This document shows, one piece after another, positions 15,441-51,345 of a stretch of 64,000 nt of DNA. Positions within the stretch are counted from its first letter, which is position 1. Each line of letters begins with the position of its first letter. Origin of the DNA: Pocillopora verrucosa (Eukaryota; Cnidaria; Anthozoa; Scleractinia; Pocilloporidae); the NCBI RefSeq assembly GCF_036669915.1, contig NC_089324.1, positions 1,290,844 through 1,354,843 on the forward strand. The letters run 5' to 3'. A program made the translations under genes and the position numbers. The notes beneath the pieces are model-generated. The model made no database searches. It had not been told where the DNA came from and saw nothing but the letters and a program-made list of their open reading frames with translations.

Positions 15441-15678
15441 GAAGTCCATATTAAGCGAACACCGACTTTACGGTGGATTTTGTTTTTGGATTTTAGCGGT
15501 GAATTTTATCTCCTCATATTTAGTACCCTTCTGTGCACTTTATTTATATAATTCTCTGATCAGTAAAGTTCAGCTTCACCTATTGATCTATGGTCATAAA
15601 ATGGATAGTTAATCAATTAGTTGTGGTTTCATACAAGCAAAAATATAAGTAAAAGGCAAGAAAACAAAAATAAAGTCA

Positions 15679-20900: not shown

Positions 20901-23900
20901 TATTCTCCAACCATTCTTGTATAATTAAAACATCTTAATGAACAGAGAGAACATAGAAAACTTGGACCATGTTACAAAATTGTCTAAACATAGATCTAAG
21001 CATCAATACTTAATTTAAACTAATAAATTACTCTTCTTAACTCTTCCTGCAGCAAAGTATGGCAGGAAGTGAGCATGGCTCTGTTGAGGAGTTTCGGGGA
21101 CAAATATTCACTGTTCTTGGAATTTATGAGGTTCTCTTAAAATTTGTTTTTATTTCTTATCAGTGACAAAGACTAATTTGTTTGTTTACTCATCAAATTT
21201 CTCATCTTGGGATTGTTATTTCTAGCAAACAAGGAATCCATCTTTTGAGGCAATATTTAGTTATGAGAACTACATTGTTGTGTACTGTCCCTCCTGCTTC
21301 CTGTACTTTCATCTCTAGCTGTGTTGCTATGTTACGAATGACAGGCCAGCTCATTGCTAGGGGTTATGGGCATGTGTGTGAAATAACAGACCAGTAGAGT
21401 TTAATTGTTGTCTAGCAACGACATGTACTATAACAAAAATACTTTGTGTGATTAATATACCTTATGCTAATAACTCTCTTAGTGACATGCTGCAAACTTG
21501 GAACCAGCATAATTTTAAATTAAATAGTTTCACGAAGGCCTTTGGAGTTTATCAGTTAATGTACCTTCTTTATTCATTTTTGTATATCACTCTTGTACTT
21601 GTTGTATATTTAGGAATCAGTTTATTAAAACTTTAAGTCTTTCATGGTAAAACCTTGTCTTTACTTTACAATATACATAGTTAAACTTTTCCCATCAAAT
21701 GTTACCTTTGTCAATTATGGACTGTCTTACTCTTGACAGGGGAATTTAGTGGCAGTCAAAAGATTACAGAAGGCCAAAGTTGCTCTGGAACGTGAAGTGC
21801 TGTTGGAACTGAAAGAGGTGAAACAGCAAATTGAAGTCTTTACTTCCCTCATTTTAACACCTTTTCTAGCTTCTACATTATCATTATATTTTGAGAACAA
21901 AAAACCCCTTTTAAAACTCTCAGTCAGATGAATGTATCAGATGTATCTGAACAATAGAAGGCTGTCAAAGTGAGGTTAAAAATGTTTATTTCATAAATTC
22001 ACAATTGCTATAAGACTTCTGTTGAAAAGGTCTTTGTTTACTCAGATGAAGGATATCAACCATCAAAATGTCAACCTGTTCATTGGTGCCTGTATTGATC
22101 CTGAAAACATTTGTATCTTAACCCAGTACTGTAACAAAGGAAGTCTCCAGGTAAAATAAGAACTGATTTGAAATGACACATTATCAGCACATCTTGCACT
22201 TAACTGGGTCTTGAGGTCTTATTTTTTCAGACCAAAAAAAGTGCACTGTTTTCATAACTGAATTTTTCCTTAGGATGTGTTGCATAATGACACCTTTAAG
22301 TTGGATTGGATGTTTCAGATGTCAATTTCATCGGACATTGCAAAGGTGTGTACAGTTTTTGGTACTGCAGTCAGTTTGATGCTCTATTGACCTTACCATC
22401 TTCATATTCTTGCTAAACAATTTGAGATAAATTCCATGTGGTTTTTTACCAAAAGGTACACAATATTTCTAATGAGCACTTACTTTTGATGACTGCTTAA
22501 ACTAAGCAATTGAATACCCTTAGTTATGTTAGTTGAATAACAGTTAGTGGTGAAAAAAGTTTTATCCTGTGTAACTCAGTTGAGATTTGTCTGGTTGTCT
22601 AGGAAAATAAACATTTCCTGTCTCTCAAATAAGCTGCATTTTAATCAAATCCCATAGCATGAGCTGAATTCATAGTCTCATTCATCAAAAGATATTTTCC
22701 ATCAATTTATTGTTCAACAGGGCATGCACTTCCTGCAGAATAGTCCAGTTCAGTTACATGGCAACTTAAAGTCATCAAATGTGTTGATTGACAGCCACTG
22801 GACATGCAAACTAACTGACCATGGGTTGTTTCTCTTCAAAGAAGGACAGGAGATTGATGTGGAAGCTGGTGAAGATTCCAAGTATTATGGTAAATCAATT
22901 TTTGATAAGAAAAGTAGTTTGGTTTGGTCAAATAATTTTCTGATTCCTTTCTAATTAAAGACAATCTTTGGACAGCACCAGAACATATCCTCAATGACCA
23001 GTATCCTCATTCTCAACCTGGAGATGTGTACAGCTATGGAATCATCCTTTCTGAAATTGTAACTCGTGGTTTACCCTTCAGCATGTACGAGGACTTGTCA
23101 GCTCAGGGTATGTATTCTGTGCCAATTTATGAAAAATGAAAAGGAAACTTTTATGAAGGAATACATGACAAGAAGGAGAAGAAATATTGAGTTCAGAAAT
23201 AAGCAAAACATAGCTCTAAAAGCAAAAAGATTAGGAAATATTGAGAAAAAACAAGAGAATCTCAAAGGCAGGCATTCAACAAACAAAGAATCAAATTCTG
23301 ATCACATTAGAGAACTGATGCATAAGAGAAATAGTACTTAACAACCAACCAAAATGCTGGTTTAGCATTGCATAATTTGCTGCTAATCTGAAGCTTTCAC
23401 ATGCAGGAAGGACAATTTAGATAAGTGGGTGCACTTTGTGGTGGAACCTAAAAATTCCACCTATTTTATTGCTCATCTGCTCAATTTCACTGTTCCACCG
23501 CTCAAAGCGAACAATGGTGCATGAAAGTACCACTTACACAAGCATAGCTAAGGTCTACCTTCAAGTCAGATTGAAGTTTTGATTTTTGTGATTTAAAATT
23601 CCACTAATGTATAACTTTGATTTAACATTTCTTAAGCTGTTGTTGAGCGTGTTAAAAAAGGAGAGATCCCATCCTTCCGCCCACGTATCACCAAGGACAC
23701 TGTAGGACATACTCTCTATGTTGACATGATGAAAATGTGCTGGGATCAGGACCCACTAGCCAGGCCTAAGTTTTCAGACTGCATCAAATATCTTAAGCGG
23801 ATGAACAAAGGAAAGTAAGTGAACAGATGACCGAGTTTGGAAGGTTTCTGTTGTAATTAGAATTTCATTACACACGTTTGTTACATCTATCTCAAAACAC

Positions 23901-26688
23901 TAAGTCTCTGCTCTACACATTTTAAAGACAAAGAAGTGTAAGGTATTGTCAGTAATTTCAGAATTTGGGTTTGAGGCATTTATGATGATGGCCGGCTTAC
24001 GAGTGACACACTATTCGTAAATTTGTTGTAATTTCATGCTTGTTTTCTTCAGTGACTTCAACATTATGGATACTATGATCACCATGATGGAAAAGTACAC
24101 AGATCACTTGGAAGACATTGTCGCTGAGCGAACAGCTGAGCTTGCAGCTGAGAAAGCAAAGACTGACGAGCTTTTGTACAGGATGCTTCCAAAGTAAATT
24201 GCACTTAAAACTGCTTAGAATTAAATACTTTTTCAATGCAATTCATATAAGAATAAGGAATAAGCCTGCTGCCTTACCCTGCAACTGTTAACATTCACGG
24301 TACATTGATATAATTGGTGTCAGGTAAACGCATGGCGTGTGCAAATCCAGCTATGTTTTTCAAGAGGTGATGAGGGCTTTATTTGGTAGGATTTCAGGCT
24401 GTTCATAAATCTAACTTTTTATCTTTTCCATAATTTGATTGTTATATTCTTGACTTTCTCTGTGGAAAATGACAGCCACTTCCGAAGAGCACATTTCTTC
24501 AAATCCAAATACGCCGCCATTTTGTGTAATCCCTGACCCATTCTTATAACCCGTGCCCACGGTCGCTGATATTTGCGATATTTGATGGTATATGTACGAT
24601 GACATCTTTTGTATTCACTCTCATGCCATTTATCTGTCTGTTTGGTTTTGTCTGATTACAGGTCTGTGGCAGAGGAACTTAAGAGAGGGCACCCTGTTAC
24701 TGCCGAAACCTTTGAGTCCGCTACACTTTTTTTCAGTGATATCGTTGGTTTCACCAAGCTGGCATCTGAGAGCACACCCCTTCAGGTACATGTACTCCCG
24801 AATATACATGTCGTAAGTCGATCTCGTAATATCGATTTGTTAGAAAATACTTTCTTTTGTCTATCCGTTTATAGATTGTTGACTTGCTTAACGACCTGTA
24901 CACTTGCTTTGACGAAATCATTGACATGCATGATGTCTACAAGGTAAGACATGTTACATGACTGAACACTAAGATGTCGTCTCCAGCGTAAACAAGGTAA
25001 AACTCAGTGGTAGTTGAGTCACTTTAATAGAATGCCTTGACAGGAGAACACGTTTATACATCCATTGCTTATAATTCAGGTTGAGACCATTGGTGATGCC
25101 TACGTGGTCGCTTCCGGGCTACCAAACAGGAATGGAATCAGACATGCTGGCGAGATCAGTAACATGTCCTTAGATTTGCTGTCAGCAATGACTGCTTTTA
25201 AGATAAGGCATGTTCCAGGAAGGCAACTGCAACTCAGAATTGGGATTCATACAGGTTAGAAATATTTCTTAAGCTAACTTAGCTACATTCTAGGTCATGA
25301 GTTCATAAACTGACTTGCACAAGGGTTTAGCGGGATCTTCAGTTATGGGGATCAGTTCTATGCATATAATTAGCATCTTGCTGACATTAGGGGGCACGCC
25401 AAGTTGTAAAATAATTATCACCATAACAAGGGAGTTATCACCACTTCAGCGTCGCCCTTATAGAACCCTGGAAAAGTTAACAAAAGAAAAATGAAAGAGT
25501 CGGTATGGGAAAATTGTGTGTGTTTCTGACTTAAACAATGCCTCCTTTCAGGTCCCGTGGTTGCCGGGGTTGTTGGTCTCAAAATGCCGCGATATTGCCT
25601 GTTTGGTGACACGGTCAACTATGCGTCAAGAATGGAGTCTTCCGGTTTGGGTAAGGAAGAGCCTCTCAGCATGCCTTACACGTCAGGGAGAATTGTAGGA
25701 AATTCCGTTTTTCGCGCTGATTTCAATCTTAAATTGGCTTCAGTATTATTCCCTATAATGAAGAGGGTTCTATAAAGGGCCTAGGTTGTTTGGGTATGAA
25801 AGATCCCACTTGTCTAACTAAGAAGCGTTGAGCTAAGAAACATGATTCCTTGGAACCGAAGACATTTTTTATCATCAGAAATTGGAAAAAATAACAATAT
25901 ATCCTGAGACCTTGGAACACGCGGTGTTCCAGGGTCTCAAATACAAATCATCTTGGATGCCGATCTAACTCTTTCGTCGGTACTTACACTCCATGCTCCC
26001 TCCCTTTGTCACATAAAAAATTTAACTCAAATTTCATTTACATGTGGAGAAGCTTTCAACATTTCTGCATTTTGGTCCCCCCTTTCTCAAAAATTGTGGG
26101 CAATTCATTTTCAGTCCGCCTTTCCGGCTTTGACTCCCTCACTTACCAGAGCTCTACAATTTTTTCAGCTCTTCGAATTCACGTGAGTCCAGAATGCAAA
26201 GAAGTTCTTGATAGACTTGGCGGATACGTGCTGCAAGAAAGAGGTTTCGTTGAAATGAAGGTAAGCGAGCGTTTATCTATTTTACATGATCAAATCTTTT
26301 AGAGCAAGTGCTTTGTTACTGCGAGAGCTTATCAGAATATCCTTGGCATGAAGCAATTAGGATCGAATGCATATTGAAGTTTGTGTTCAAATGTTCGTAG
26401 AAACATCTGTAACTGCCTCAGACGACGACCTGCTATAAGTTAGCGAGTAGTCTTATTAGCACTCTGAAGCAGCAAATATAAGTTGTAAATTCGATGCTTA
26501 CGATATTCTAAAATCTCAACTCAACGTGCTTCGTCCAGAATGACGGTAAATTGTAATCAAGCTTTTCATTTAACTTTCAGGGCAAGGGGAGCATCCTTAC
26601 GTATTTCTTAAAAACAAGAGAAGGATTTTACAAACCTCTTCCGGATCTCTCCATGGCGGCTGGCATGGAAGAGCACTCTTTTAAGTAG
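17944..26688 (+). CDS. Receptor-type guanylyl cyclase copy 1 (natriuretic-peptide-receptor-like), 20 exons
   Basis: A single-pass receptor that makes cGMP from GTP on binding an extracellular ligand. Exons: 17944-18604, 18783-19060, 19298-19433, 19717-19947, 20457-20547, 20703-20808, 21053-21130, 21740-21817, 22046-22150, 22274-22345, 22721-22889, 22961-23107, 23637-23814, 24053-24193, 24662-24785, 24875-24943, 25080-25254, 25552-25650, 26169-26260, 26581-26688. All joins are GT-AG and in frame, giving 1045 aa, the usual family length. Signal peptide about 1-19; ANF-receptor ligand domain to about 435; transmembrane about 440-462; kinase-homology domain about 500-776 with VAVK Lys534 but HGN (625-627) in place of HRD and D-H-G at 645-647, so a pseudokinase; dimerisation coiled coil about 777-823; class III cyclase domain with Asp850 (FSDIVGF), Glu890 and Asp894 (VETIGDAY) and Cys962 (YCLFGDT), the metal and guanine determinants. 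Predicted active. Confidence 0.93.
20100..20347. mobile_element. MITE family C in guanylyl cyclase copy 1 intron 4
   Basis: It begins GGCCCAGGTTGTTCAAAAC and ends CCTTTGAAAAAAACTGGGCCC, which are inverted ends. It is present at the same place in copies 2 (about 31328-31566) and 3 (about 43531-43779), so it predates the triplication. One sequence switch in mosaic copy 2 falls inside it. Confidence 0.6.
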
Positions 26689-29174
26689 ATGCAAGCAATG
26701 AAACTCTTTTTCTTCCCTTACCTTCCGTAGAGTCATTTTATTGGCAATATGAACATTTGTTTGAAAGACTTGTTTTTTTAAAATCTTTTCAGGCTCGTCG
26801 CGGGCTCATCTGTCCATTCACTGTAATTTTATCTTGGTCTCAGTGTTTTCATTTAAAAGTGTTATACAAAATAAGAAGCATACTGATTTTAGAGTGTAAT
26901 GGGTTAAGCATTCAAACTGATAGAGGCCCCCTTTAACAGTGCTCAACCTACCTGGATTTTGAGTGAAACCGCCTGGACATTTGTACGCATCATCATAAAT
27001 TTCTCGACATATCTATTGGTTCTCAGAAGATCTTTAGCCATTATCTTGACTGCATTCTGTAAAGTATACATTATGTGTAGTTAACTCTTTAACTCCAGAA
27101 TTGATGAACATTTAACTTCTCCCTATAATATCCATACATTATCCAACAAACAGGTAATGAGAATACTCATTGACAAACTTATCAGATAGAAGTTGTTGTT
27201 GATCTAATACCAAATTCTTGTAACTAATTATACCTTGTTCGTGGAGAAGGTGCCTTACCCTGTCACCAATTTACTTTCCCGGAAAAACAAAACAAGACAG
27301 TTTTTGGCTTCATGTCACATCTATGCAGGAATCAGGAAATTGCAGACATAAATCCTTTTTCTTTTTTTTTAAAGGCAGGAATTAGAAGTGAAAGCCTCTT
27401 TTAGAGGCCTAATCTATGACAAATTTCTCCTCTGCCTGCCCCCCGCCCCGGGCGCCCCACCTCCGCACAGCTCCCAACCCTTCTACTCGGTTCAACATTT
27501 CCTGCATCAAAAAGCTGCCTAGCATCGTGCAATTCACCGAAGGTAGTTAAACATTTCGATACTGCTTTCAACATAAAACATAGACAGGAATTAATACAAT
27601 CCATCTCAAAGTAGGAAAAATTTTTAATTTTTCCGCTTTATCCTTTACATTCATCGTCCGCTCTTTTCAAAATTTTCCTTAATGCAGTGCGCACACTCTG
27701 CATGGTACGTCGTGACAAAATGGCGGGAATACATTAAAAGGCTCATTTGAACACACCAATCAGAATGCGTCATCTGATGTACCGACCAATCAGATTTCGC
27801 CTTGTGTTTCGCAGCGCCCTCACATTTTGGTGTCAACGCCTCCTGGGTTGAAAAATTATTCTCTACATTGAAAACCTTTGCGATTGTGCTATAATAATTT
27901 CGTTGTTTTTCGTGATTAGCTTAAAAGGGGTTTTACACTCGGAAAAAGTTACGATTTGACAGGACTGTGAAAAAAGTTTTACTAGGAATATCACAACGTG
28001 AGTAACTCGAATTCATAGAGAAAAATTTGAGTTTTAGATCAAATGGCATAGCTGAAAGTACATCGTACTATTGCTCCAAAACCAGCTGAAATTTATGTCT
28101 AATGGTTATATCATGAATGGGTTTTAAAGTATGGTAAGGATAATTTTTTAAGTAGGCAGTTGACAAATGTTCTTTCCTGTTGTGACAGGTTGGGATTTCA
28201 GGAGTTCGATCGAAGTTCTTTAAAAATTTAAGGGTCTTCTACAAGGCTTGTCTTACTTCAAGAAAAGGTGATCTGAGGTAACTAACGAGATGAATAAGTA
28301 TGAGGGGACATAACTCGTTAACTTACTTGATCGTAATAAATGCAAGCATTTGGAGAAAAAATTGGACCAAAGACTTCCAATACGCCCCCAAAATACTACA
28401 TCGTTAACAGCAGCCACATGGCGAATATGGACGGTAGTTTTCACCACAGTGGCAAAGTACGAAAAAAGACCTTGCGAAAACTCCTTAGAGCAAGAATATT
28501 CGCCATTTTTCTACCTAAGTCCTCTCCATAAATTCCTCTAAAATTAAATATTGCTCGATTTAATAGAGTTTTCTCATTGTTTCTTACATTTGCCGGTGAA
28601 GCAAAAAAACAAATGTACAGAAACTGAAGTCAATACTGAGATGAAATTGATATTCGACTTTATCTTAACAAGGTGCTCTTTTTATTCAAAATGAACGACC
28701 TTCTCATTTTTGTAGCAAGACAAGCCCCATTTGCAAAAATGCCAAAAACTGATTCCAACCAGTGAAAATTTTCATCCTAAACGGCTGATAAAATGTGAAA
28801 AAAGGTTCAATAACAGAAATCATCTGCGTGGGTGCTACATTTTTATTTGTCAGTCAAGCTTAAAATATAAAAGCTGTTGATATATCCTTTTTTAAAAAGT
28901 AACTATAGGTTATTCATCCTGTGCTAAATTAGGTCAGATAGCCATGTGTTTGATTTGCCGTGTTTGGAAAAGTAAGACAGCTTTAAAAAAAAAAACCTGT
29001 CTAAAAACAAAGAAAAATAAACATCAGTTGTTTTGAAGTCAGGTTTTGAAGAGCTCTTTGAGAAAAATCTAGGTGGTATAACGTCCTCTGCGTTAATAAT
29101 AAGCCAAAGGGAACTCCCTATTTATTCATGGATTTCTTTCATTTTTCAGAAACATATGATCAGAGGAAACAACA
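26689..29174. other. Junction of cyclase units 1 and 2 and 5' flank of copy 2
   Basis: 3' flank of copy 1 to about 26878. Then comes a CHMP2A-derived piece (to about 27230) containing a complete stray exon 3 and a truncated family B MITE. Then about 140 bp not found elsewhere except in unit 3, a C-rich block (27429-27470), and the copy 2 promoter flank with its conserved putative 5' UTR exon end (27997) and acceptor (29149). Compared with unit 3, about 300 bp before the C-rich block are missing. Confidence 0.55.
26952..27056 (-). pseudogene. Orphan duplicate of CHMP2A exon 3 with intact splice sites
   Basis: This 105-bp block matches CHMP2A exon 3 (13281-13385) on the same strand. It keeps the acceptor AG and the donor GTAGGT, and stays open for all 35 codons, starting NAVKIMAKDLLRTNRYVEKF. 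It differs at several residues from the parent (for example RRYVKKF to NRYVEKF, and IVMRAN to MMMRTN). No neighbouring CHMP2A exons are present, so it cannot make the protein alone. It marks the edge of the duplicated block. Confidence 0.8.
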
Positions 29175-32100
29175 ATGAATCCTCTTCTTGTGCTTGGATC
29201 TATTCTTTGTTTAGTTTCTCTTTCTTATGCAAGGGATATCAAAATGGGGATCTTTCTTCCTTTCACTGGTGGTTGGCCTGGTGGTCACAGGATGGCATCA
29301 GCAATTCTGATTGCTAGGGACAAAGTAAACAGTGACCCTTACTGGCTTCAAGGACATAACCTGACCTTTGTACTTAAAGACAGCAAATGTGAAGCAAGAG
29401 CATCTCTTGCAACATTGGTGGACTATTACACAATAGAAAACCCCAAAGTTGATGTCTACATTGGTCCTGGATGTTCAGTGGGATGTGTCCCTGGTGCCTA
29501 CATAGCAGCTCACTGGAACATTCCCATGGTATCTTGGGGATGCGCAGCGACAGTACTATCAGACAAAACACTCTATCCTTATTTTGTACGGACAACTGGT
29601 ACATTTGCTGGTTTGGGAGATCTCTTAAGGGCCATCTTAGCAAAATTCAAATGGGATCGCATAGCAATCATGTCTTCAACAGAAACAGCTTTCTCAGCGG
29701 CTGCTAATGATGCAAAGGTCACCATAGAGAAAGATGGCAAATATTCAGTACCCTTTTTTGGTAGCTTTTCCCCTGGAGCAACTGACCTCTTCAAACTTAA
29801 ATCCATGGTCAGGTCAATGGCAACCAAGGCACATGGTAAGTAACAAGAACAAACCTGACAGAGGACATGCATACAGACAATATTGGCTTATATTCATGAA
29901 CCTTTGTGTTCTTTATTACAATTGCTAACTGATGTAAGCTTAATAATTTATATTAAATAAAAGATCATGATAAAATAGAGTTGTAAATTGACCAATTTAT
30001 CTTCACCTTACAGTTGTAATGGTACTTTGCTATAATGATCTTATGAGAAGTCTAGTGCTTATCTTCAACGAGCTGGGCCTGTTGAATGGGGATTATGTGA
30101 TAATTTCCGCTGAGACAATTTATGAGTCATGCCAAGCTGGTGATGAAAGAGATGATGAGGCTTGCAAAGCTTATGAAGGAATGATTGACATTAGTCAGTA
30201 CATTCCAGATTCACAGGACTATACAGACTTTACTACTGATGTTTACAACAGGATGCCTGAACTGAACTACACAATGCGTGCACCTAATGAAGTAAGTACA
30301 ACTCTTACACACCTGAAATGTATTTAAGCAAGACATTACCCCTAAAGCTGAAATCATCAACTGTGATTCATGAAATAAAATGAAACAAATTAAAGAGGAC
30401 AAAACTCAACAATGCACCAAGTTATATCATGAATAAGTCTTCCCTAGACCCCTATCAATCCCAACACTTTATTATCAGCCTACTGATCATCAAATGACTT
30501 AATTATATTATTGCTTTTTTTCTGCTAGACTATCATCTATGCTGCTTACCTTCATGATGCCATTCTTTTGTATGCATATGCCCTAAATGAATCTTTGACC
30601 CAGGGTGTGGCCATAACTGAAGGGGCAAATGTGTCTAAGTCAATGATAGGAAAGCAATTCATAGGTGAGCATGCTTTTAAGCAAAACTTTTGATAAGATG
30701 GATCCTTATTGATACACCCAGTTTCACCTATTAATATATATTTAAAATGTCCCTTTCAAGCAATATTGTCATTTGCATTATTTTATTAAGTACAGATAAA
30801 CCACCTTTGTGTCATTATTCTACATTACTACTGACAATAACATTAATTTTCTAGCAAAACAGTGTCACTGAGCTCCAAAGAAAAAAAGCTTGTGAATATT
30901 CATGTGTAAGAGCTGAAGAGAATTATTTTTTCTCCAATGCTAATAGGTGCATCAGGTCCTGTTGGTATTGATGAAAAGGGAGACAGAGTTGCCTCTTACA
31001 GGCTGCAATCATTTCTACCCGGCATGTCACTTGCAAGAATTGCAAATTATTTTGGCACAACTGGAGAACTTCTTTTTTGAATCAATCAATCATGTGGCAT
31101 GGTGGTACCACAAAGATTCCCCTTGGAAGACCAGCATGTGGTTTTGACAATGAATTTTGCAAAGAGGCTGCAAAAGGTAAAGGAAAAATTTATAGAGTCT
31201 AGTTGAACAAGATATGAGTTCCCTGTACACATTGGAAACAGTAAGCAAGAGAAAGTGTATGTTAATTCCAGCATGCAGATAACCAGGTCAAAAATATAGG
31301 TTGTCGGGCTAATGTACTGTCAAAAGACCAGGCCCAGGTTGTTCAAAACTGGATTAAGATAACACAGTGTGAAATTTGATTTCAGGTCTGAAAGCTTGAA
31401 AAGAAAATTCAGTTCACATCTTTTTGCTTGTAATTTGATCATCGTATGTTCTTAAAAGAATTAGGAAAATTTTCCCTTAAAGGCTTTTGAACAAAGAAAT
31501 AAAGAAACCTGGATTAAAATTTAACCCTGGGTTAGCACTAATTGGCCTTTGAAAAAACTGAGTCCAGAGGGTTATAATAATAGTGCACCTAAAAGTGAAG
31601 TTAACATCTCCAACATAATCACGCCTTTAAGTTCATCATTGATTTCAATCGTAACTGTCATAACTTTTGTTTTCTAGAGGAGGATCCTACTTGGCCATAC
31701 ATCTTGGCAGGATGTCTTATCTTTGTTTTGATTGTTTCAATTCTGGTTGGGTTTTTATTGTGGCAGAGGTAAGCTTGTAAGTGTTTAGAAAATAATTAGT
31801 AATCTCTTGAACTTCAATGTCCTGGATGAGAAATGGTATAGAAAAAGACTTAAACCCACCAAAATATTAACTACAGTCTCTGAAATCTCTTTTGTTTTTT
31901 CACCCTCATCTTTGTTGGTGTTTAATAGGAAACAAGCTTTTGAAGCATCACTGTTGGCTCAAACATGGAAAGTGGAATATGATGACATACAATGGCCAAA
32001 GAATAAAGGAAAGCTAGGGAGTAGAAAGAGTGGGGTATGTCAGTGTTGATATGACTGATGCTCTGTGTCAATTCCATTTAAATTTGTATTATTTTCTAGT

Positions 32101-35100
32101 CATCTAAGACTAACTCTTTCAACTTTATTCTCCAACCATTCTTGTATAATGAAAACATCTTAATGAACAGAGAGAACATGGAAAACTTGGACTGTGTTAC
32201 AAAATTGCCCAATCATAGATCTAAGCATCAATACTTATTTTAGACTAATAAATTACTCTTCTTAACTCTTCTCTGCAGCAAAGTATGGCAGCAGCAAGTG
32301 AGCGTGGCTCTATAGAGGACCTTCGAGGACAAATATTCACTGTTCTTGGAATTTATGAGGTTCTCTTTAACTCTTTATTTCTCATCAGGGACAAATGCTA
32401 ATTTATTTGTTTACTCGTCAGATTTCTCATCTTAGGATTGTCATTTTAACAAACATGAAATTGATCTTTGAGGAAATATTTATTTATGTGAAATTCATGG
32501 TTGTATACTGTAACTAAAATACTTGGTGCAATTTAAATACCTTGTACAAAAAGCTCTCTTAGTGAAATGCTGCAAACTTGGAATCTGCATAATTTTAGAT
32601 TAAATAACTGATTTTGTGAAGGCCTTTGGGTTTATCAGTTAATGCAGTTTTTTTATTCATTTTTGTATATCACACTTGTACTTGTTGTATATTTAGGAAT
32701 CAAGGTATTAAAACTTAAAGTCTTTCATAGTAAAACCTTGTCTTTACTCTACAACATACATATGGCAGTAGAGCTATCTGTTAAGGACATTGGTTGCTGG
32801 ATGCTGTGCAACAAACTCAAGTTAAATCAGGATAAGACAGAACTTTTGGTTATTAGTTCTAATTATCATCCACGACCACCCCTCGACTATATGCAAAGAA
32901 GTAATCAAATCTAGTAAACAGGCCAGGAACTTAGGAGTTGGATTCGATCAATATTTAGATTTCAAAGAACCTGTGAAAGTAATATGCAAGAGTGCATTTT
33001 TCCACATTCACAGTATCACTAAAAATAGGTGATACCTATCCCAGAGTACTACTGTGGCTATTGTTCATGCTTACATAACATCACATTGGGACTATTGTAA
33101 TGCCCTACTGTATGGTCTCCCGAAGTATCTGATTAATAGACTTCAGCTTTTACAGAACTTGGCAGCTCACCTTGTTACCTTGACTAGAAGGCAGGAACAT
33201 ATCACACCAATACTAAGGAGCTTACATTGGCTGCCAGTTCATTATAGGATAGTTTTAAAAATAATGTTGCTGACTTACAAAGCTCTGAATGGACTGGCCC
33301 CAGATTACATTAAAGACCTATTGAAGTACAATGACCCTCATCGCACACTTAGATCTTCAAACAACAGGTTGCTTGATGAGCCTAGAGTGAATTTTAAAAC
33401 ATATGGTGAAAGGACTTTTTCCTTGGTGGCACCAAGGCTCTGGAATAAACTATCACTCCAGATCAGGCTTTCGTCATCAGAGGCAGCTTTTAAGGCTAAT
33501 TTTAAGACTTATCTTTTTAAGTGTGCATTTGATTTGTAGTTTTTACTTGTAGTTGTAGTGTATATAATTCTTAGGATTTTAATTTTTATGGTTTTTAGAG
33601 TATTATAAAGTACCATGGACAATTAATAGAAGATGGCGCTATATAAATGTATTCAATTAATTTAATTACTTATAATTGATTAATTAATTTAACTACATAG
33701 TTCAGCTTTTCCCAACAATTGTAACCCTTGTAAATTATGGACTCTGATTCTTGACAGGGGAATTTAGTGGCTGTCAAAAGATTACAGAAGGCCAAAGTTG
33801 CTCTGGAACGTGAAGTGCTGTTGGAACTGAAAGAGGTAAAACAGAAAATTGAAGTCTTAACTTCCCTCTTTTTGATAACTTTCCCCGCTTCTACATTATT
33901 ATAATATTTTTAGAACAAAAAAAGCTCCAAAAGTCTGAGTCAGATGAATGTATCAGATGTATCTGAACAGTAGAAAGCCATCAAAATGAGGTTAAAAATG
34001 TTTATTTATTTTGTAAATTTGCAATTGCTATAAGACTTCTATCGAAAAGGTCTTTGTTTACTCAGATGAAAGATATCAACCATCAAAATGTTAACACATT
34101 CATTGGTGCCTGTATTGATCCTGGAAACATCTGCATCTTAACCCAGTACTGCAACAAAGGAAGTCTCCAGGTAAAATAAGAACTGATTTGAAATGACAAA
34201 TTATCAGCATATCTCGCACTTAACTGGGTCTTGAGGTCTTATTTTTTCAGACCAAAAAAAGTGCACTCTTTTCATAACTGAAGTTTTTTCAGGATGTGTT
34301 GCATAATGACAGCTTGAAGTTGGATTGGATTTTTCAGATGTCCATTTCATCAGACATTGCAAAGGTGCGTACAGTTTTTGGTACTGCAGTCAGTTTGATG
34401 CTCTATCAACCTTACCATCTTCATATTCTAGCTACACAATTTGAAATAAATTCCTTGTGACTTCTTACCAAAAGGTACACAATATTTTTACTGAGCACTT
34501 TTGGTCACTTTCCTCCCTATTTAATAACTGCTTTAAAATGAACAATTCAACAATTCAATAATTAGTTAGTAGTGAAAATAATTTTTATCCAGTGTAACTT
34601 AGTTGAGATTTGTCCGGTTTTCTAGGAAAATAAACATTTCCTGTCTCTCAAATAAGCTGCATTTTAATCAAATCCCATAGCATGAGCTGAATTCATAGTC
34701 TCATTCATCAAAAGATATTTTCCATCAATTTATTGTTCAACAGGGCATGCACTTCCTGCAGAATAGTCCAGTTCAGATACATGGCAACTTAAAGTCATCA
34801 AATGTGTTGATTGACAGCCGCTGGACATGCAAACTAACCGACCATGGGTTGTTTCTCTTCAAAGAAGGACAGGAGATTGATGTGGAAGCTGGTGAAGATT
34901 CCAAGTATTATGGTAAATACATTTTTGATGGGAAAAGGAGTTTGGTTCAGTCCAATAATTTTCTGATTCCTTTCTAATTTAAGACAATCTTTGGAAAGCA
35001 CCAGAACACATCCTCAATGACCAGTATCCTCATTCTCAACCTGGAGATGTGTACAGCTATGGAATCATCCTTTCTGAAATTGTAACTCGTGGTTTACCCT

Positions 35101-38100
35101 TCAGCATGTATGAGGACTTGTCAGCTCAGGGTATGTATTCTGTGCCAATTTTTTAAAGGTAGCACTGAAACTACATTACATGAATGTAAGTTTAACTATT
35201 TTGATTTAGTTTCCCCAATAAAAACAGGGTCACAAACATTTTTTATCAGTTAGACCCAGAAAGATAAAAATTAATGATTGGAAGCACTTCTAGGAGGATT
35301 GAGTGTTGCTTCAATGACCTACAATTATCAGAAACGGAAACCTACCAGTTCTGCAATAATTGGGAATTTGTTTGATACCATTTGAAAAGAATCAAGTATT
35401 GACAGTACTGATTTGTAAGAGAATTAGTGCTTTAAAACAAACCAAAATGTTGGTTTAGCCTTGTATACTTTGCTGCTAATCTGAAGCTTTCACATGCAGG
35501 AAGGATATTAGATAAATGGGTACACTTTGCGGGGGAACCTAAAAATTCCACCTATTTTATTGCTCATCTGCTCATATTCACTCATCCACCACTAAAAGTG
35601 AACAATGCTACATAAAACTACCACTTACACAAGGATACCTTCAAGTAAGGTTGAAGTTTTTATTTTTATGATTTAAAATTCCACTTATGTATAACTTTGA
35701 TTTAACATTTCTTAAGCTGTTGTTGAGCGTGTTAAAAAAGGAGAGATCCCATCCTTCCGCCCACGTATCACCAAGGACACTGTAGGACATACTCTCTATG
35801 TTGACATGATGAAACTGTGCTGGGATCAGGACCCACTCGCTAGGCCTAAGTTTTCGGACTGCATCAAATATCTTAAGCAGATGAACAAAGGAAAGTAAGT
35901 GAACAGATGACCGAGTTTGGAAGGTTTCTGTTGTAATTAGAGTTTCATTACACACGTTTGTTACATCTATCTCAAAACACTAAGTCTCTGCTTTACACAT
36001 TTTAAAGACAAAGAAGTGTAAGGTATTGTCAGTAATTTCAGAATTTGGGTTTGAGGCATTTATGATGATGGCTTACGAGAGACACACTATTCGTAAATTT
36101 GTTGTAATTTCTGCTTGTTTTCTTCAGGGACTTCAACATTATGGATACTATGATCACCATGATGGAAAAGTACACAGATCACTTGGAAGACATTGTCGCT
36201 GAGCGAACAGCTGAGCTTGCAGCTGAGAAAGCAAAGACTGACGAGCTTTTGTACAGGATGCTTCCAAAGTAAATTGCACTTAAAACTGCCTAGAATTAAG
36301 TACCATGCAAACCTTTTTCAATACAATTCATATAAGAATAAGGAATAAGCCTGCTGCCTTACCCTGCAACAGTCAACATTCACGGTACCTTGATATACAT
36401 TTGGTGTCAGGTATACGCATGGCGTGTGCCAATCCAGCTATGGTTTCCAAGAGGTGATGAAGGCTTTGTTTGGTTGGATTTCAGGCTGTTCAGAAATCTT
36501 ACTTTTTATTCTTTCCATAATTTGACTTATATATTCTTGACTATCTCTGTGGAAAATTTCAACTACTTCCGAAGATCCAAATACGCCGCCATTTTGTGTA
36601 TTCCCTAACCCAGTCTTACAACCTGTGCTCACGGTCGCTGATATTTGATGGTATTTACGATGACATCTTTTGTATTCACTCTCATGCTACTTACTTCTTT
36701 GTTTGGTTTTGTCTGATTACAGGTCTGTGGCAGAGGAACTTAAGAGAGGGCAGCCTGTTACTGCCGAAACCTTTGAGTCCGCTACACTTTTTTTCAGTGA
36801 TATCGTTGGTTTCACCAAGCTGGCATCTGAGAGCACACCCCTTCAGGTACATGTACTCCCGAATTTACATGTCGTAAGTCGATCTCGTAATATCGATTTG
36901 TTAGAAAATACTTTCTTTTGTCTATCCGTTTATAGATTGTTGACTTGCTTAACGACCTGTACACTTGCTTTGACGAAATCATTGACATGCATGATGTCTA
37001 CAAGGTAAGACATGTTACATGACTGAACACTAAGATGTCTTCTCCAGCGTAAACAAGGTAAAACTCAGTGGCAGTTGAGTCACTTTAATAGAATGCCTTG
37101 ACAGGAGAACACGTTTATACATCCATTGCTTATAATTCAGGTTGAGACCATTGGTGATGCCTACGTGGTCGCTTCCGGGCTACCAAACAGGAATGGAATC
37201 AGACATGCTGGCGAGATCAGTAACATGTCCTTAGATTTGCTGTCAGCAATGACTACTTTTAAAATAAGGCATGTTCCAGGAAGGCAACTGCAACTCAGAA
37301 TTGGGATTCATACAGGTTAGAAACCTTTCTTAAGCTAACTTAGCTACATTCTAGGTCATGAGTTCATAAACTGACTTGCACAAGGGTTTAGCGGGATCTT
37401 CAGTTATGGGGATCAGTTCTATGCATATAATTAGCATCTTGCTGACATTAGGGGGCACGCCAAGTTGTAAAATAATTATCACCATAACAAGGGAGTTATC
37501 ACCACTTCAGTGTCGCCCTTATGGAACCCTGGAAAAGTTAACAAAAGAAAAATGAAAGAGTCGGTATGGGGAAATTATGTGTGTTTCTGACTTAAACAAT
37601 GCCTCCTTTCAGGTCCCGTGGTTGCCGGGGTTGTTGGTCTCAAAATGCCGCGATATTGCCTGTTTGGTGACACGGTCAACTATGCGTCAAGAATGGAGTC
37701 TTCCGGTTTGGGTAAGGAAGAGCCTCTCGGCATGCCTTACACGTCAGGGAGAATTGTAGGAAATTCCGTTTTTCGCGCTGATTTCAATCTTAAATTGGCT
37801 TCAGTGATATTCCCTATAATGAAGAGGGTTCTATAAAGGGCCTAGGTTGTTTGGGTATGAAAGATCCCACTTGTCTAACTAACAAGCGTTGAGCTAAGAA
37901 ACATGATTCTTTGGAACTGAAGACATTTTTTATCTTCAGAAATTGGAAAAAATAACAATATATCTTGAGACCTTGGAACACGCGGTGTTCCAGGGTCTCA
38001 AATACAAATCATCTTGGATGCCGATCTAACTCTTTCGTCGGTACTTACACTCCATGCTCCCTCCCTTTGTCACATAAAAAATTTAACTCAAATTTCATTT

Positions 38101-38749
38101 ACCTGTGGAGTAGCTTTCAACATTTCTGCATTTTGGTCCCCCCTTTCTCAAAAATTGTGGGCAATTCATTTTCAGTCCGCCTTTCCGGCTTTGACTCCCT
38201 CACTTACCAGAGCTCTACAATTTTTTCAGCTCTTCGAATTCACGTGAGTCCAGAATGCAAAGAAGTTCTTGATAGACTTGGCGGATACGTGCTGCAAGAA
38301 AGAGGTTTCGTTGAAATGAAGGTAAGCGAGCGTTTATCTATTTTACATGATCAAATCTTTTAGAGCAAGTGCTTTGTTACTGCGAGAGCTTATCAGAATA
38401 TCCTTGGCATGAAGCAATTAGGATCGAATGCATATTGAAGTTTGTGTTCAAATGTTCGTAGAAACATCTGTAACTGCCTCAGACGACGACCTGCTATAAG
38501 TTAGCGAGTAGTCTTATTAGCACTCTGAAGCAGCAAATATAAGTTGTAAATTCGATGCTTACGATATTCTAAAATCTCAACTCAACGTGCTTCGTCCAGA
38601 ATGACGGTAAATTGTAATCAAGCTTTTCATTTAACTTTCAGGGCAAGGGGAGCATCCTTACGTATTTCTTAAAAACAAGAGAAGGATTTTACAAACCTCT
38701 TCCGGATCTCTCCATGGCGGCTGGCATGGAAGAGCACTCTTTTAAGTAG
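29175..38749 (+). pseudogene. Receptor guanylyl cyclase copy 2, frameshifted in exon 4
   Basis: Same 20-exon structure as copy 1: 29175-29835, 30014-30291, 30529-30664, 30947-31176, 31678-31768, 31929-32034, 32279-32359, 33758-33835, 34066-34170, 34293-34364, 34744-34912, 34984-35130, 35717-35894, 36128-36268, 36723-36846, 36936-37004, 37141-37315, 37613-37711, 38230-38321, 38642-38749. Every splice site is kept and every exon except the fourth has the length of its counterpart in an intact copy. Exon 4 is 230 bp instead of 231: CTTCAGCTTTTG of copy 1 reads CTTCTTTTTTG, and a TGA follows at 31078-31080. The product would be 402 codons: signal peptide and most of the ligand-binding domain, no membrane anchor, kinase-homology or cyclase part. 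It could be a recent pseudogene, a secreted decoy, a transcript removed by decay, or a base error in a T run. Downstream exons keep the catalytic residues. Confidence 0.85.
32765..33693 (+). mobile_element. Non-LTR retrotransposon 3' fragment (CR1/L2/Jockey-like reverse transcriptase end) in copy 2 intron 7
   Basis: The fragment encodes the C-terminal part of a LINE reverse transcriptase, with [17 protein letters not shown] then, after a frame break, [26 protein letters not shown] and APRLWNKLS. These are common signatures of such elements in invertebrates. It is 5'-truncated, with broken frames and an AT-rich TTAATTTAATTA-type tail. Copy 1 has the empty site (about 21671-21680); the flanks share TACATA, a likely short target-site duplication. 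The insertion is also in copy 3, so these intron regions share a more recent ancestor. Confidence 0.8.
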
Positions 38750-41373
38750 ATGCAAGCAATGAAACTCTTTTTCTTCCCTTACCTTCCGTAGAGTCATTTT
38801 ATTGGCAATATGAACATTTGTTTGAAAGACTTGTTCTTTTAAAATCCTTTCAGGCTCGTCGCGGGGTCATCTGTCCATTCACTGTAATTTTATCTTGGTC
38901 TCGGTGTTTTCATTTAAAAGTGTTATACAAAATAAGAAGCATACTGATTTTAGAGTGTAATGGGTTAAGCATTCAAACTGATAGAGTTCCCTTTAGACAG
39001 TGCTCAACCTACCTGGATTTTGAGTGAAACCGCCTGGACATTTGCACGCATCACCATAAATTTCTCGACATATCTATTGGTTCTCAGAAGATCTTTAGCC
39101 ATTATCTTGACCTTGTTCTTGGAGAAGGTGCCTTACCCTGTCACCAATTTACTTTCCCGGAAAAACAAAACAAGACAGTTTTTGGCTTCATGTCACATCT
39201 ATGCAGGAATCAGGAAATTGCAGACACAAATACTTTTTCTTTTTTTTCTCAACAACAACCGTGCGTAAAAAAAAATATCAAAAGGTAGTCGAGACAAATC
39301 AGGCAAAAACGATATATTCAATTATGCGTAAAATGATCAAAGCGCCTTTTACTTGGTATGTTGTTAGGAGTCTAGAATTGACAAGAATTTTGTCTTTCTG
39401 ATCCTTTGGTGGCCTTGACGAGAGATGACTTTAATACGAAAAGTCAGTCAAAATTTCCTCACCATTAACCGCTGATTTGGCCAAGTAATAGAAACATCTC
39501 TAGGACTTTGACGAGTCCTGTGAATCCTATTAATCAATACCAATATTCTTTGTTGAGATGAGAAGAATGAAAGGCAGGAATTAGAAGTGAAAGCCTCTTT
39601 TAGAGGCCTAATCTGTGGCAAATTTCCCCTCTGCCTGCCCCCCGCCCCGGGCGCCCCACCTCCGCCCAGCTCCCAACCCTTCTACTCGGTTCAACCTTTC
39701 CTGCATCAAAAAGCTGCCTAGCATCGTGCAATTCACCGAAGGTAGTTAAACATTTCGATACTGCTTTCAACATAAAACAGAGACAGGAATTAATACAATC
39801 CATCTCAAAGTAGGAAACATTTTTAATTTTTCCGCTTTATCCTTTTCATTCATCGTCCGCTCTTTTCAAAATTTTACTTCATGCAGTGCGCACACTCTGC
39901 ATGGTACGTCATGACAAAATGGCGGGAATACATTAAAAGGCTCATTTGAACACACCAATCAGAATGCGTTATCTGATGTACCGACCAATCAGATTTCGCT
40001 TGGTGTTCCACAGCGCCCTCACATTTTGGTGTCAACGCCTCCTGGGTTGAAAAATTGTTTTCTTCATTGAAAACCTTTGCGATTGTGCTATAATAGTTTC
40101 GTTGTTTTTCGTGATTAGCTTAAAAGGGGTTTTACACTCGGAAAAAGTTACGATTTGACAGGACTGTAAAAAAAGTTTTACTAGGAACATCACAACGTGA
40201 GTAACTCAAATTCATAGAGAAAAATTTGAGTTTTTGATCAAATGGAATAGTTGAAAGTACATCGTACTATTGCTCCAAAACCAGCTGAAATTTATGTCTA
40301 ATGGTTATATCATGAATGGGTTTTAAGGTATGGTAAGGATATTTTTTTAAGTAGGCAGTTGACAAATATTCTTTTCTGTTGTGACAGGTTGGGATTTCAG
40401 GAGTTCGATCGAAGTTCTTTAAAAATTTAAGGGTCCTCTACAAGGCTTGTCTTACTTTAAGAAAAGGTGACCTGAGGTAACTAACGAGATGAATAAGTAT
40501 AAGGGGACATAACTCGTTAACTTACTTGATCGTAATAAATGCAAGCATTTGGAGAAAAAATTGGACCAAAGACTTCCAATGCGCCCCAAAAATATTACAT
40601 CGTTAACAGCAGCCACATGGCGAATATGGACGGCAGTTTTCACCACAGTGGCAAAGTACGAAAAAAGACCTTGCGAAAACTCCTTAGAGCAAGAATATTC
40701 GCCATTTTTCTGCCTAAGTCCTCTTCATAAATTCCTCTAAAATTAAATATTGCTCGATTTAACAGAGTTTTCTCATTGTTTCTTACATTTGCCGGTGAAG
40801 CAAAAATACAAATGTACAGAAACTGAAGTCAATGCTAAGATGAAATTGATATTCGACTTTATCTTAACAAGGTGCTCTTTTTATTCAAAATGAACGACCT
40901 TCACATTTTTGTTGCAGGACAAGCCCCATTTGCAAAAATGCCAAAAACTGATTCCAACCAGTGAAAATTTTCATCCTAAACGGCTGATAAAATGTGAGAA
41001 AAGGTTTAATAACAGAAATCATCTGCGTGGGTGCTACATTTTCATTTGTCTGTCAAGCTTAAAATATAAAAGCTGTTGATATATCCTTTTTTAAAAAGTA
41101 ATTATAGGTTATTCATCCTGTGCTAAATTAGGTCAGATAGCCATGTGTTTGATTTGCCATGTTTGGAAAAGTAAGACAGCTTTAAAAAAAAAAACCTGTC
41201 TAAAAACAAAGAAAAATAAACATCAGTTGTTTTGAAGTCAGGTTTTGAAGAGCTCTTTGAGAAAAATCTAGGTGGTATAACGTCCTCTGCATTAATAATA
41301 AGCCAAAGGGAGCTCCCTATTTATTCATGGATTTCTTTCATTTTTCAGAAACATATGATCAGAGGAAACAACA
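38750..41373. other. Junction of cyclase units 2 and 3 and 5' flank of copy 3
   Basis: 3' flank of copy 2 to 38938, then a CHMP2A exon 3 fragment cut off at 39111, then the same 140-bp segment of unknown origin as in unit 2, an approximately 300-bp block shared with unit 1 (39250-39570) but absent from unit 2, the C-rich block (39629-39668), and the copy 3 promoter flank. The conserved putative UTR exon ends at 40196 and the coding-exon acceptor is at 41348. Confidence 0.55.
39015..39111 (-). pseudogene. Truncated orphan duplicate of CHMP2A exon 3 in unit 3
   Basis: It is nearly identical to the orphan exon in unit 2 but breaks off at CCATTATCTTGAC, so the acceptor and first codons are gone and unrelated CTTGTTCTTGGAG follows. 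The donor side is retained. This shows a deletion after the units separated, or unequal exchange at this edge. Confidence 0.75.
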
Positions 41374-44300
41374 ATGAATCCTTTTCTTGTGCTTGGATCT
41401 ATTCTTTGTTTATTTTCTCTCTCTTATGCAAGGGATATCAAAATGGGGATCTTTCTTCCTTTCACTGGTAGTTGGCCTGGTGGTCCCAAGATGGCATCAG
41501 CAATTCTGATTGCTAGGGACAAAGTAAACAGTGACCCTTACTGGCTACAAGGACATAACCTGACCTTTGTACTTAAAGACAGCAAATGTGAAGCAAGCAC
41601 ATCTCTTGCAACACTGGTGGACTACTACACAATAGAAAACCCCAAAGTTGATGTCTACATTGGCCCTGGATGTTCAGTTGCATGTGTCCCTGGTGCCTAC
41701 ATAGCAGCTCACTGGAATATTCCCATGATATCTTGGGGATGCACAGCTTCAGTACTATCAGACAAAACACAGTATCCTTACTTTGTACGGACGGCTGGCA
41801 CATACACTGGTTTGGGAGATCTCTTAAGGGCCTTCTTAGAAAACTACAAATGGGATCGCATAGGCTTCATGTCTTCAACAGAAACAGTTTTTTCGGAGGC
41901 TGCTAATACAGCAAAGGTCACCCTTGAGAGAGATGGCAAATATTCAGTACCCTTTTTTGGTAGCTTTGCTCCTGGAGCAACTGACCTCTTCAAACTTAAA
42001 TCCATGGTCAGGTCAATGGCAACCAAGGCACATGGTAAGTAACAAGAACAAACTTGACAGAGAACATGCATACAGACAATATCGATGCAAAATAATCTTT
42101 TGTGTTCTTTATTACAATTGCTAACTGCTGTAAGCTTAATAATTAATATCAAATTAAAGATCATGATGAAATGAGTTGTATAGTGACCAACTTATCTTTA
42201 CTTTACAGTTTTCATGTTACTTTGCTATGGTAATGCTATGAGAAGTCTAATGCTTATCTTCAATGAGCTGGGCCTGTTGAATGGGAAATATGTGATAGTT
42301 GCCTTGGAGACACTTTATGATTCATGCCAAGCTGGTGATGCCAGAGATGATGAGGCTTGCAAAGCTTTCGAAGGAATCATTGATGTTAGTCAGTATATTC
42401 CAGATTCACAGGATTATACAGATTTTACAACAGCTGTTTACAACAGGATGCCTGAAATGAACTACTCAATGAATGCACCTAACGAAGTAAGAACACTTCT
42501 TACATGCCTGAAATGTATTAAGGCAAGGCACATTTACCCTTGAACCTGAAATCCTGTACTGTGATTCATGAAATGAAACAAATGAAAGAGGGCAAAACTC
42601 ATCAATGCACTAAGTGATATCATGAATAAGTCTTCCTTAGACCCCTATCAATCCCAACACTTCGTTATCAGCCTACTGATCATCAAATGACTTAATTGTA
42701 TTATTGATTTTTTCTGCTAGACTAACATCTATGCTGCATACCTTCATGATGCCATTCTTTTGTATGCATATGCCCTAAATGAATCTTTGACCCAAGGTGT
42801 GGCCATAACTGAAGGGGCAAATGTGTCAAAGTCAATGATAGGAAAGCAATTCCTAGGTAAGCATGCTTTTAAACAAAATTCTTGATAAGATGGATCCATT
42901 TGGATACACCAGCAGTTTCAGCTATTAACATGAATTAAAAATATCCCTCTCAAGCAATATTGTCATCTGCATTATTTTATTAAGTACACATAAACCTCCT
43001 TTGTGTCAGTATTCTACAACTACAACAACATTAATTTTCTAGCAAACTGTGTCACTGAGCCCCAAAGAAAGAAACAGCTATACAGCTCACAGTATGTGAA
43101 TACTCGTATGTAAGAGCTGAGGTGAATTCTTTATTCTCCAATGCTAATAGGCGTATCAGGTCCTGTTGGTATTGATGAAAAGGGAGACAGAGTTGCCTCT
43201 TATAGGCTGCAATCATTTCTACCTGGCATGTCAAGTGTAAGAGTTGCAAATTTCTTTGGCACAACTGGAGAACTTCAGCTTTTGAATCAAACTATCCTGT
43301 GGCCTGGTGGTGCCACAGAGATTCCTCTTGGAAGACCAGCATGTGGTTTTGACAATGAATTTTGCGAAGAGGCCACAAAAGGTAAAGAAGAAATTTATAG
43401 TGTCTAGTTGAACAAGGTTTGAGTTCCCTGTACAAATTGAAAACAGTAAACAAAAGAAAGTGTATGTTAATTCCAGCATGCAGATAACCAGGTCAAAAAT
43501 ATGGATTGTTGGGCAAGTATAATGTCAAAAGACTTGGCCCAAGTTGTTCAAAACTGGGTTAAGATAACCCAGAGTAAGTGCAAAATTTGATTTCAGGTCT
43601 GAAAGCTTGAAAAGAAAATTCAGTTCACATCTTTTTTCTTGTAATTTGATCATTGTATGTTCTTAAAAGAATTAGGAAAATTTTCCCTTAAAGGCTTTTG
43701 AACAAAGAAATAAAGAAACTTGGATTAAAATTTAACCCTGGGTTAGCACTAATCGGCCTTTGAAAAAACTGAGCCCAGAAGGTTATAATAATAGTGCACC
43801 TAAAAGTGAAGTTAACATCTCTAACATAATCACACCTTTAAGTTCATCATCGATTTTAATCGTAACTGTCGTAACTTTTGTTTTCTAGAGGAGGATCCTA
43901 CTTGGCCATACATCTTGGCAGGATGTCTTACCTTTGTTTTAGTTGTTTCAATTCTGGTTGGGTTTTTATTGTGGCAGAGGTAAGCTTGTAAGTGTTTAGA
44001 AAATAATTAGTAATCTCTTGAACTTCACTGTCCTGGATGAGAAATGGTATAGAAAAAGACTTAAACCCACCAAAATATTAACAACAGTCTCTGAAGTCTC
44101 TTTTGTTTTTTCACCTTCATCTTTGTTGGTGTTTAATAGGAAACAAGCTTTTGAAGCATCACTGTTGGCTCAAACATGGAAAGTGAAATATGATGACATA
44201 CAATGGCCAAAGAATAAAGGAAAGCTAGGGAGTAGAAAGAGTGGGGTATGTTAGTGTTGATATGACTGATGCTCTGTGTCACTTCCATTTAAATTTGTAT

Positions 44301-50300: not shown

Positions 50301-51162
50301 AGAGGGTTCCATATAGGGCCTAGGTTGTTTGGGTAAGAAAGATTTTGCATGTATGATCTAACTAACAAGCGTTGAGCTGAGCAGTTGTACATGATTCTTT
50401 GGAACCAATGACATTTTTGATCTTCTTGTTCCCTTCCCAGACACTCTCGTTCTGTCAGTTTCCATTAATAAGCGTGTACCTTGGTCACATAAAAAATTTA
50501 ACTCAAATTTCATTTATCTATGGAGTAGCTTTCAACATTTCCGCAGTTTGGTTATCCCTTTCTCAAAATTATTGGCAATCCATTTTCAGTCCGCCTTTCC
50601 GGCTTTGACTCCCTCACTTACTATAGCCCTACGATTTTTCAGCTCTTCGAATTCACGTGAGTCCTGAATGCAAAGAAGTTCTTGATAAACTTGGTGGATA
50701 CGTGTTGCAAGAAAGAGGTTTCGTTGAAATGAAGGTAAGGGAGCCTTTATCTATTTTACATGATCAAATCTTTTAGAGCAAGTGCTTTGTTACTGCCAAA
50801 GCTTATCAGAATATCCTTGGCATGAAGCAATTAGGATCGAATGCATACTGAAGTTTGTGTTCAAATGTTCGTAGAAACATTTGTAACTGCCTCAAACGAC
50901 GACCTGCCATAAGTTAGCGAGTAGTCTTATCAGTACTCTCAAGCAGCAAATATAAGTTGTACATTCGATGCTTACGATAACCTAAAATCCCAACTCAACG
51001 TGCTTTGTCCAGAATGACGATACACTGTAATCACGCTTTTCATTTAACTTTCAGGGCAAGGGGAGTATCCTTACGTATTTCTTAAAAACAAGAGAAGGAT
51101 TTGACAAACCTCTTCCGGATCTCTCCATGGCGGCTGGCATGGAAGAGCACTCTTTTAAGTAG
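41374..51162 (+). CDS. Receptor-type guanylyl cyclase copy 3, 20 exons, diverged ectodomain
   Basis: Exons: 41374-42034, 42209-42486, 42721-42856, 43151-43381, 43889-43979, 44140-44245, 44490-44570, 45851-45928, 46159-46263, 46387-46458, 46852-47020, 47092-47238, 47834-48011, 48245-48385, 48839-48962, 49054-49122, 49259-49433, 50089-50187, 50643-50734, 51055-51162. All joins are GT-AG and in frame; 1046 aa, one residue longer than copy 1 because of exon 7. Same order of signal peptide, ANF-receptor domain, one transmembrane segment, pseudokinase (HGN in place of HRD), coiled coil and class III cyclase with [15 protein letters not shown] and YCLFGDT intact. Most differences from copies 1 and 2 lie in the ectodomain (for example [12 protein letters not shown] versus [12 protein letters not shown], and [12 protein letters not shown] versus [12 protein letters not shown]), while the cyclase exons are nearly unchanged. 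It probably has a changed ligand response with the same cGMP output. Confidence 0.93.
44955..45787 (+). mobile_element. Non-LTR retrotransposon 3' fragment in copy 3 intron 7 (shorter twin)
   Basis: Same insertion and position as in copy 2, with WMLDVVQQ- and [11 protein letters not shown]-type reverse transcriptase end sequences. It lacks about 110 bp near the 3' end (ACTTATCTTTTTAAG runs directly into CTGAAGATGGCG), which also shifts the end of the frame. It is non-functional. Confidence 0.8.
49544..49908. mobile_element. Insertion of about 365 bp found only in copy 3 (intron 17)
   Basis: Copies 1 and 2 read continuously from GATCAGTTCTATGCATATAATT into AGCATCTTGCTGACATTAG; copy 3 has about 365 extra bases at that point, flanked by GATT on both sides. 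No coding capacity or clear terminal repeats were seen, so the element type is unknown. Confidence 0.5.
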
Positions 51163-51345
51163 ATGCACGCCATGAAACTCTTTTTCTTCCTTTACCTCCC
51201 GTAGAGTCATTTTACTGGAAACACGAACATTTGTTTGATAGACTTGTTTTTTAAAAAACCTGCTAGGTTTGTTTCGAGCTTACGTGTCCATTCACTGTAG
51301 TTTTATCTTGGTCTCAGTGTCTTCATTTAAAACTGTTAGACAAAA

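Follow-up and report, generated by a model that had tools for sequence, protein, structure and literature searches.

We analysed a 64,000-nucleotide stretch of the genome of the coral Pocillopora verrucosa (the window; assembly GCF_036669915.1, NC_089324.1, positions 1,290,844 to 1,354,843), which forms part of the 17.7-Mb contig C13 in an assembly of 353 Mb and 52 contigs. Self-comparison and alignment reveal three direct tandem units, each with one receptor guanylyl cyclase gene on the plus strand, and we find that the middle unit, copy 2, is a four-block mosaic of its two neighbours, the A-type copy 1 and the B-type copy 3 (Table 1).

Taken together, the three-way alignment, open frames and splice-like sites yield a predicted 20-exon model of these genes, with exon 7 ending at a weak GT. 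The predicted layout places the ligand-binding region in exons 1-4, a transmembrane segment, assigned by eye from hydrophobic sequence, in exon 5, the juxtamembrane and kinase-homology regions in exons 6-13, a linker in exon 14 and the cyclase domain in exons 15-20. The profile PF01094 (ANF_receptor) is found in exon 1 of all copies (E = 2.2e-28, 1.3e-28 and 9.6e-32) and is also matched by exon 2 of copy 3 (E = 1.5e-6), while exon 4 of copy 3 gave no Pfam family. Two of the three kinase-region exons tested in copy 3 match kinase families above the curated cut-off (46852-47019 and 47094-47237) and the other (47836-48009) falls under the Pfam cut-off; PF00211 lies above the cut-off in three of four cyclase exons tested in this copy, with no family found in exon 19. 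Judged by sequence, the array genes would have the make-up that defines receptor guanylyl cyclases, namely a ligand-binding region and a kinase-homology region followed by a cyclase domain. The ratio of nonsynonymous to synonymous change (dN/dS) between copies 1 and 3 is 0.49 in exons 1-4, 0.27 in exons 5-14 and 0.12 in the cyclase exons, such that the ligand-binding exons are the fastest-changing part.

Copy 2 is a mosaic of its neighbours

Sites that separate copies 1 and 3 in the three-way alignment were taken as informative and classed by the neighbour that copy 2 matches; gapped columns, and hence also the insertion that copy 1 lacks, are excluded from these counts. Because each junction between units has its own deletion before position 27371, the 89 informative sites there (19 copy-1-like, 70 copy-3-like) were dropped, leaving 1046 of 1135. 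Copy 2 matches copy 1 and copy 3, respectively, at 16:194 sites in 27371-29140, 200:7 in 29141-31384, 25:416 in 31385-36705 and 173:15 in 36706-38939, and the same alternation is found in blocks 1-4 when only non-coding sites are counted (16:194, 98:0, 24:373 and 156:12). Insertions and deletions (indels) of any length behave likewise (0:24, 9:1, 5:38 and 10:0), with 0, 3, 7 and 0 further indels private to copy 2. The 1046 sites fall into just 114 runs, compared with a mean of 501 and a minimum of 446 in 20,000 shuffles, and the longest runs shared with copy 1 (47) and copy 3 (97) far exceed the maxima of 15 and 26 in 10,000 permutations. A two-state hidden Markov model (HMM) reaches a log-likelihood of -4114 versus -4575 for one state, an improvement of ≈461 log units. 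An earlier note on this DNA, made by eye, had described copy 2 as a mosaic of copy-1-like and copy-3-like sequence, and its description is confirmed by all sites, non-coding sites, indels and the HMM; the identity profile along the units is not uniform in the alignment, the site runs or the HMM.

Copies 1 and 3 themselves differ by 11-14% at non-coding sites in all five stretches compared (215/1669, 98/875, 68/499, 330/2561 and 166/1468), whereas copy 2 lies much closer to one or the other in each block. Within block 3, its non-coding divergence from copy 3 is 17/499 (3.4%) at 31398-32100 and 25/2561 (1.0%) at 32101-36699. The island at 29141-31384 has the properties of a conversion tract, in that it is bounded and is closer to the other paralogue than its flanks are, at non-coding sites too.

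Larger structural markers are also placed by the alignment. As the earlier note had claimed, copies 2 and 3 have an insertion in common that is absent from copy 1, at the same site, where the copy 1 matches flanking the insertion overlap by 6 bp. This insertion is presumably the long interspersed nuclear element (LINE) that the note had named; a Pfam search of its open reading frame at 33033-33536 returned no family. Both other copies lack ≈0.36 kb that copy 3 carries at 49544-49905. The junctions between copies 1 and 2 and between copies 2 and 3 are the same join, with 96.9-97.8% identity in three matched pieces, outside one deletion in each (≈180 bp and ≈320 bp long). As a separate observation, nothing in the other two copies corresponds to a 2.1-kb stretch in the 5' flank of copy 1 (13563-15675).

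Table 1 Units, blocks, switch points and other features of the array, in window positions
Feature	Position	Strand	Remarks
Copy 1 unit, A-type	13206-26878	+	predicted coding sequence 17944-26688, 20 exons, open, 3138 nt
Copy 2 unit, mosaic	26879-38939	+	predicted gene 29175-38749, 20-exon model
Copy 3 unit, B-type	38940-51352	+	predicted coding sequence 41374-51162, 20 exons, open, 3141 nt
Junction copy 1/copy 2	26700-27700	.	compared with junction copy 2/copy 3 (38760-39899)
Block 1 of copy 2, copy-3-like, 5' flank	27371-29150	+	copy 2-copy 3 non-coding differences 50/1669 (3.0%, to 29138)
Block 2 of copy 2, copy-1-like, exons 1-4	29151-31390	+	copy 1-copy 2 non-coding differences 4/875 (0.46%, 29184-31371)
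Block 3 of copy 2, copy-3-like, exons 5-14 and shared insertion	31391-36705	+	copy 2-copy 3 non-coding differences in two stretches (see text)
Block 4 of copy 2, copy-1-like, exons 15-20 and 3' flank	36706-38939	+	copy 1-copy 2 non-coding differences 22/1468 (1.5%, 36777-38939)
Switch 1, copy-3-like to copy-1-like	29138-29207	.	HMM interval; predicted start codon 29175
Switch 2, copy-1-like to copy-3-like	31372-31428	.	HMM interval; predicted intron 4 (31177-31677), between ligand-binding and transmembrane exons
Switch 3, copy-3-like to copy-1-like	36699-36718	.	HMM interval; end of predicted intron 14, exon 15 starts 36723
Exon 4 of copy 2	30947-31176	+	small change cluster, net one-base loss giving frameshift and early stop at 31078-31080
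Insertion common to copies 2 and 3	32763-33693 (copy 3: 44955-45786)	+	absent from copy 1, same site
Patch, intron 13 and exon 14	about 35892-36285	+	near-identical in all three copies, 1.02% each pair

Switch points and shared patches

The HMM gives three main switches of partner, in line with the minimum of three that had been proposed from inspection by eye, and the switch points agree with that proposal within ≈75 bases; the end of the unit, placed there at 38938, is instead at 38939. By raw sites alone, switch 3 lies at 36699-36777. The two-state HMM also puts 34627-34815, 34854-34858 and 35892-36284 in the copy-1-like state, and we rejected these three short stretches at 34.6-36.3 kb as partner switches: in the first and third all pairs of copies differ by 0.5-1.6%, and the second is 5 bp long. 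Intron 13 (35895-36127; copy 1, ≈23815-24052; copy 3, 48012-48244) is nearly alike in all copies, as is exon 13, an observation that would fit either constraint or an older three-way conversion.

That the switches fall close to predicted domain boundaries is a post hoc observation. Since switch 1 lies close to the start codon, switch 2 in the intron preceding the transmembrane exon and switch 3 immediately upstream of the cyclase exons, one could imagine that recombination shuffles receptor modules as cassettes, such that chimeras of ligand-binding and signalling parts would arise repeatedly in the population, with copy 2 one broken example and intact ones on other haplotypes; we regard this as very doubtful.

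Reading frame of copy 2

Exon 4 is open in copies 1 and 3, unlike in copy 2, where it is frameshifted; the copy 2 exons that follow each sit within an open frame. An intact receptor guanylyl cyclase frame is therefore present in copies 1 and 3 and not in copy 2. Because of the exon 4 frameshift, the assembled copy 2 probably represents a chimeric pseudogene from which no full receptor would be made.

A crossover and a conversion tract as the probable origin

The history of the array has to account for the blocks, the switch points, the alike junctions and the unequal divergences of the blocks. The earlier note had pointed to gene conversion or unequal crossing-over, and both fit: the outer pattern of copy 2 fits a crossover, the 2.2-kb copy-1-like island within it resembles a conversion tract, and both processes were probably involved. 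The best explanation, which we consider probable though far from assured, is that an A-B pair underwent one unequal crossover, giving the arrangement known from anti-Lepore globin arrays, followed by conversion of the ligand-binding exons of copy 2. An ancestral receptor guanylyl cyclase gene would have been duplicated in tandem to give A (now copy 1) and B (now copy 3), and the two would have come to differ at 11-14% of non-coding sites. Misaligned pairing of B with the A of the other chromatid would then have led, through a crossover near 36.7 kb, to A-(B/A)-B, with a middle copy that is B-like at its 5' end and A-like at its 3' end. Later gene conversion by copy 1 would have replaced ≈2.2 kb of copy 2 (≈29.15-31.38 kb, exons 1-4). 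The lower divergence over 32.1-36.7 kb and in the 3' part would stem from additional homogenisation among adjacent copies, or from haplotypes that differed when the crossover took place. We infer the order and direction of these events, the direction from the block divergences only.

Several observations support this history, among them the four blocks seen in substitutions and indels alike, the insertion common to copies 2 and 3, and the ≈0.36 kb confined to copy 3. A crossover between A and B gives a middle copy with a copy-3-like 5' end and a copy-1-like 3' end, and in the array the middle gene is indeed B-like 5' and A-like 3'; the alike junctions fit descent of both from a single A-B junction and so support the crossover. 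The island looks overlaid on a continuous copy-3-like stretch because it is the least diverged part, at 0.46% between sides of 3.0% and 3.4%. An alternative scheme, in which the crossover lay at 29.15 kb and copy 3 then converted 5.3 kb, is disfavoured, as 31398-32100 (3.4%) would be converted yet no younger than the crossover.

We also count a control duplication in favour of this history. Receptor guanylyl cyclase exons are present in a second local duplication ≈2 Mb away (C13:3312000-3341999, loci L014-L016), which is ≈88-90% identical over its longest pieces. All 30 of 30 windows of 250 sites compared between L015 and L016 differ by 3.2-15.2%, none by less than 3%, and there is no near-identical block; this control is one pair, and the part compared is the 3' part, that is, the last cyclase exons and the sequence beyond. 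No ligand-binding match was found for the loci of the second copy in this duplication. More widely, PF00211 searched exon by exon matches 73 places in the genome, six of them within the array, and the genome profile search places further groups of cyclase matches on contigs C8, C5, C10 and C14.

Other results weigh against the proposed history. A single crossover predicts one age for the blocks that it brought together, and this is not what we find: copy 2 differs from copy 3 by 3.0% at 27371-29138 and by 1.0% at 32101-36699 (Fisher p = 2e-6), and over the unit the divergences split into 3.0-3.4% and 1.0-1.5%. Giving the more diverged copy-3-like stretches a third HMM state of their own improves the fit by ≈16 log units. 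Since the ages of the blocks differ, the history must also include one or more additional homogenising events, or parental haplotypes that were not alike. Within the island, at 29665-31371, private changes number 10 in copy 2 and one in copy 1. The model gives no reason to expect this imbalance; the donor may have been a different allele of copy 1. An outgroup was not found among the cyclase loci outside the array, as all 18 loci compared match the protein of copy 3 piecewise, at 27-94% amino acid identity, with the higher identities only in short catalytic stretches; these loci were compared by protein (in short pieces for 10 of them) and judged too distant for a DNA outgroup without DNA alignment to the window.

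Alternative explanations

Tandem arrays often undergo gene conversion without crossover, and this general frequency lends some weight to the alternative that copy 2 is an ordinary duplicate of copy 3 or copy 1, made mosaic by two or three separate conversion tracts with no A-B crossover. The unequal block divergences and the patches that are alike in all three copies would suit such a history, as would the patchy left edge of the island, where the ratio of copy-1-like to copy-3-like sites is 31:6 at 29184-29663 versus 169:1 at 29665-31371 (Fisher p = 1.4e-4). However, the copy-1-like 3' block reaches the end of the unit and the junctions are alike (96.9-97.8%); one crossover gives both at once, whereas conversion only needs a tract that ended by chance near the junction. 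We consider this alternative rather improbable, if the strongest of those weighed here.

An assembly artefact, whether two haplotypes of an A-B pair placed one after the other or a mix-up of reads from the three copies, is unlikely, because the units share exact repeats of at most 724 bp among those found, far below ordinary long reads (each word being compared with its first occurrence only), and the window contains no N and lies in a contig of 17.7 Mb. An end-to-end join of haplotypes would moreover need to fall between the non-allelic A and B, and would leave the inner island unexplained. What speaks for an artefact is that the near-identical blocks differ by 0.5-3.4%, a range that overlaps coral heterozygosity, for which excerpts of PMC10236652 report 1.14% and 2.3% in two species. 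Furthermore, exon 1 of copy 2 matches three places in the assembly (a lower bound), all in the array, leaving no alternate allele to compare.

A single tree without recombination, shaped by strongly uneven substitution rates or constraint along the unit, can be dismissed: although the near-identity of all copies over exons 13 and 14 and intron 13 shows that constraint or old homogenisation differs from one part of the unit to another, copy 2 changes partner within tens of bases in introns and flanks, for substitutions and indels alike, and the non-coding counts refute the idea, as copies 1 and 3 differ by a steady 11-14% and a change of rate cannot swap the closest relative.

Comparison with known systems

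The crossover and conversion proposed here are ordinary and well-known mechanisms, of which the array is a well-resolved further example. Anti-Lepore-type globin arrays, in which a beta/delta hybrid stands between delta and beta as a product of unequal crossover, are the classical case. The coral locus likewise comprises three genes in a row, with a middle gene that matches its downstream neighbour in the 5' part and its upstream neighbour in the 3' part; unlike the globin hybrid, copy 2 also contains an inner island derived from the upstream gene, and its reading frame is shifted. Glycophorin hybrids are known from many human alleles, and inner tracts are classical. The GYP(B-A-B) hybrids, which feature in PMC12199742, resemble copy 2 in having an inner segment of one tandem paralogue inside another, but the present case comes from one assembly and another gene family, with an island of ≈2.2 kb.

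Excerpts of PMC10236652 state that gene conversion is very rare in tandemly duplicated gene arrays of corals. The receptor guanylyl cyclase locus resembles the arrays described there in its tandem duplication with diverging introns, and differs from them in showing a clear conversion tract, which makes it a concrete counter-example to the view expressed in those excerpts; as far as the criterion is set out there, a partial tract of this kind would probably be missed by it. A three-way partner scan like that used here could measure how rare conversion is in coral tandem arrays. Neighbouring receptor guanylyl cyclase genes have exchanged sequence, and thus whole-gene trees and ages derived from such arrays can mislead. 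Among the papers listed by our literature searches, none was seen to describe this array, and none turned up on expansion or tandem duplication of guanylate cyclase genes in corals.

Across the whole window, an Rfam scan gave no matches at the gathering score. Upstream of the array, at 3871-4911, lies a single-exon frame of a rhodopsin-type G-protein-coupled receptor, for which the nearest solved structures are the galanin, prolactin-releasing peptide and neuropeptide FF receptors.

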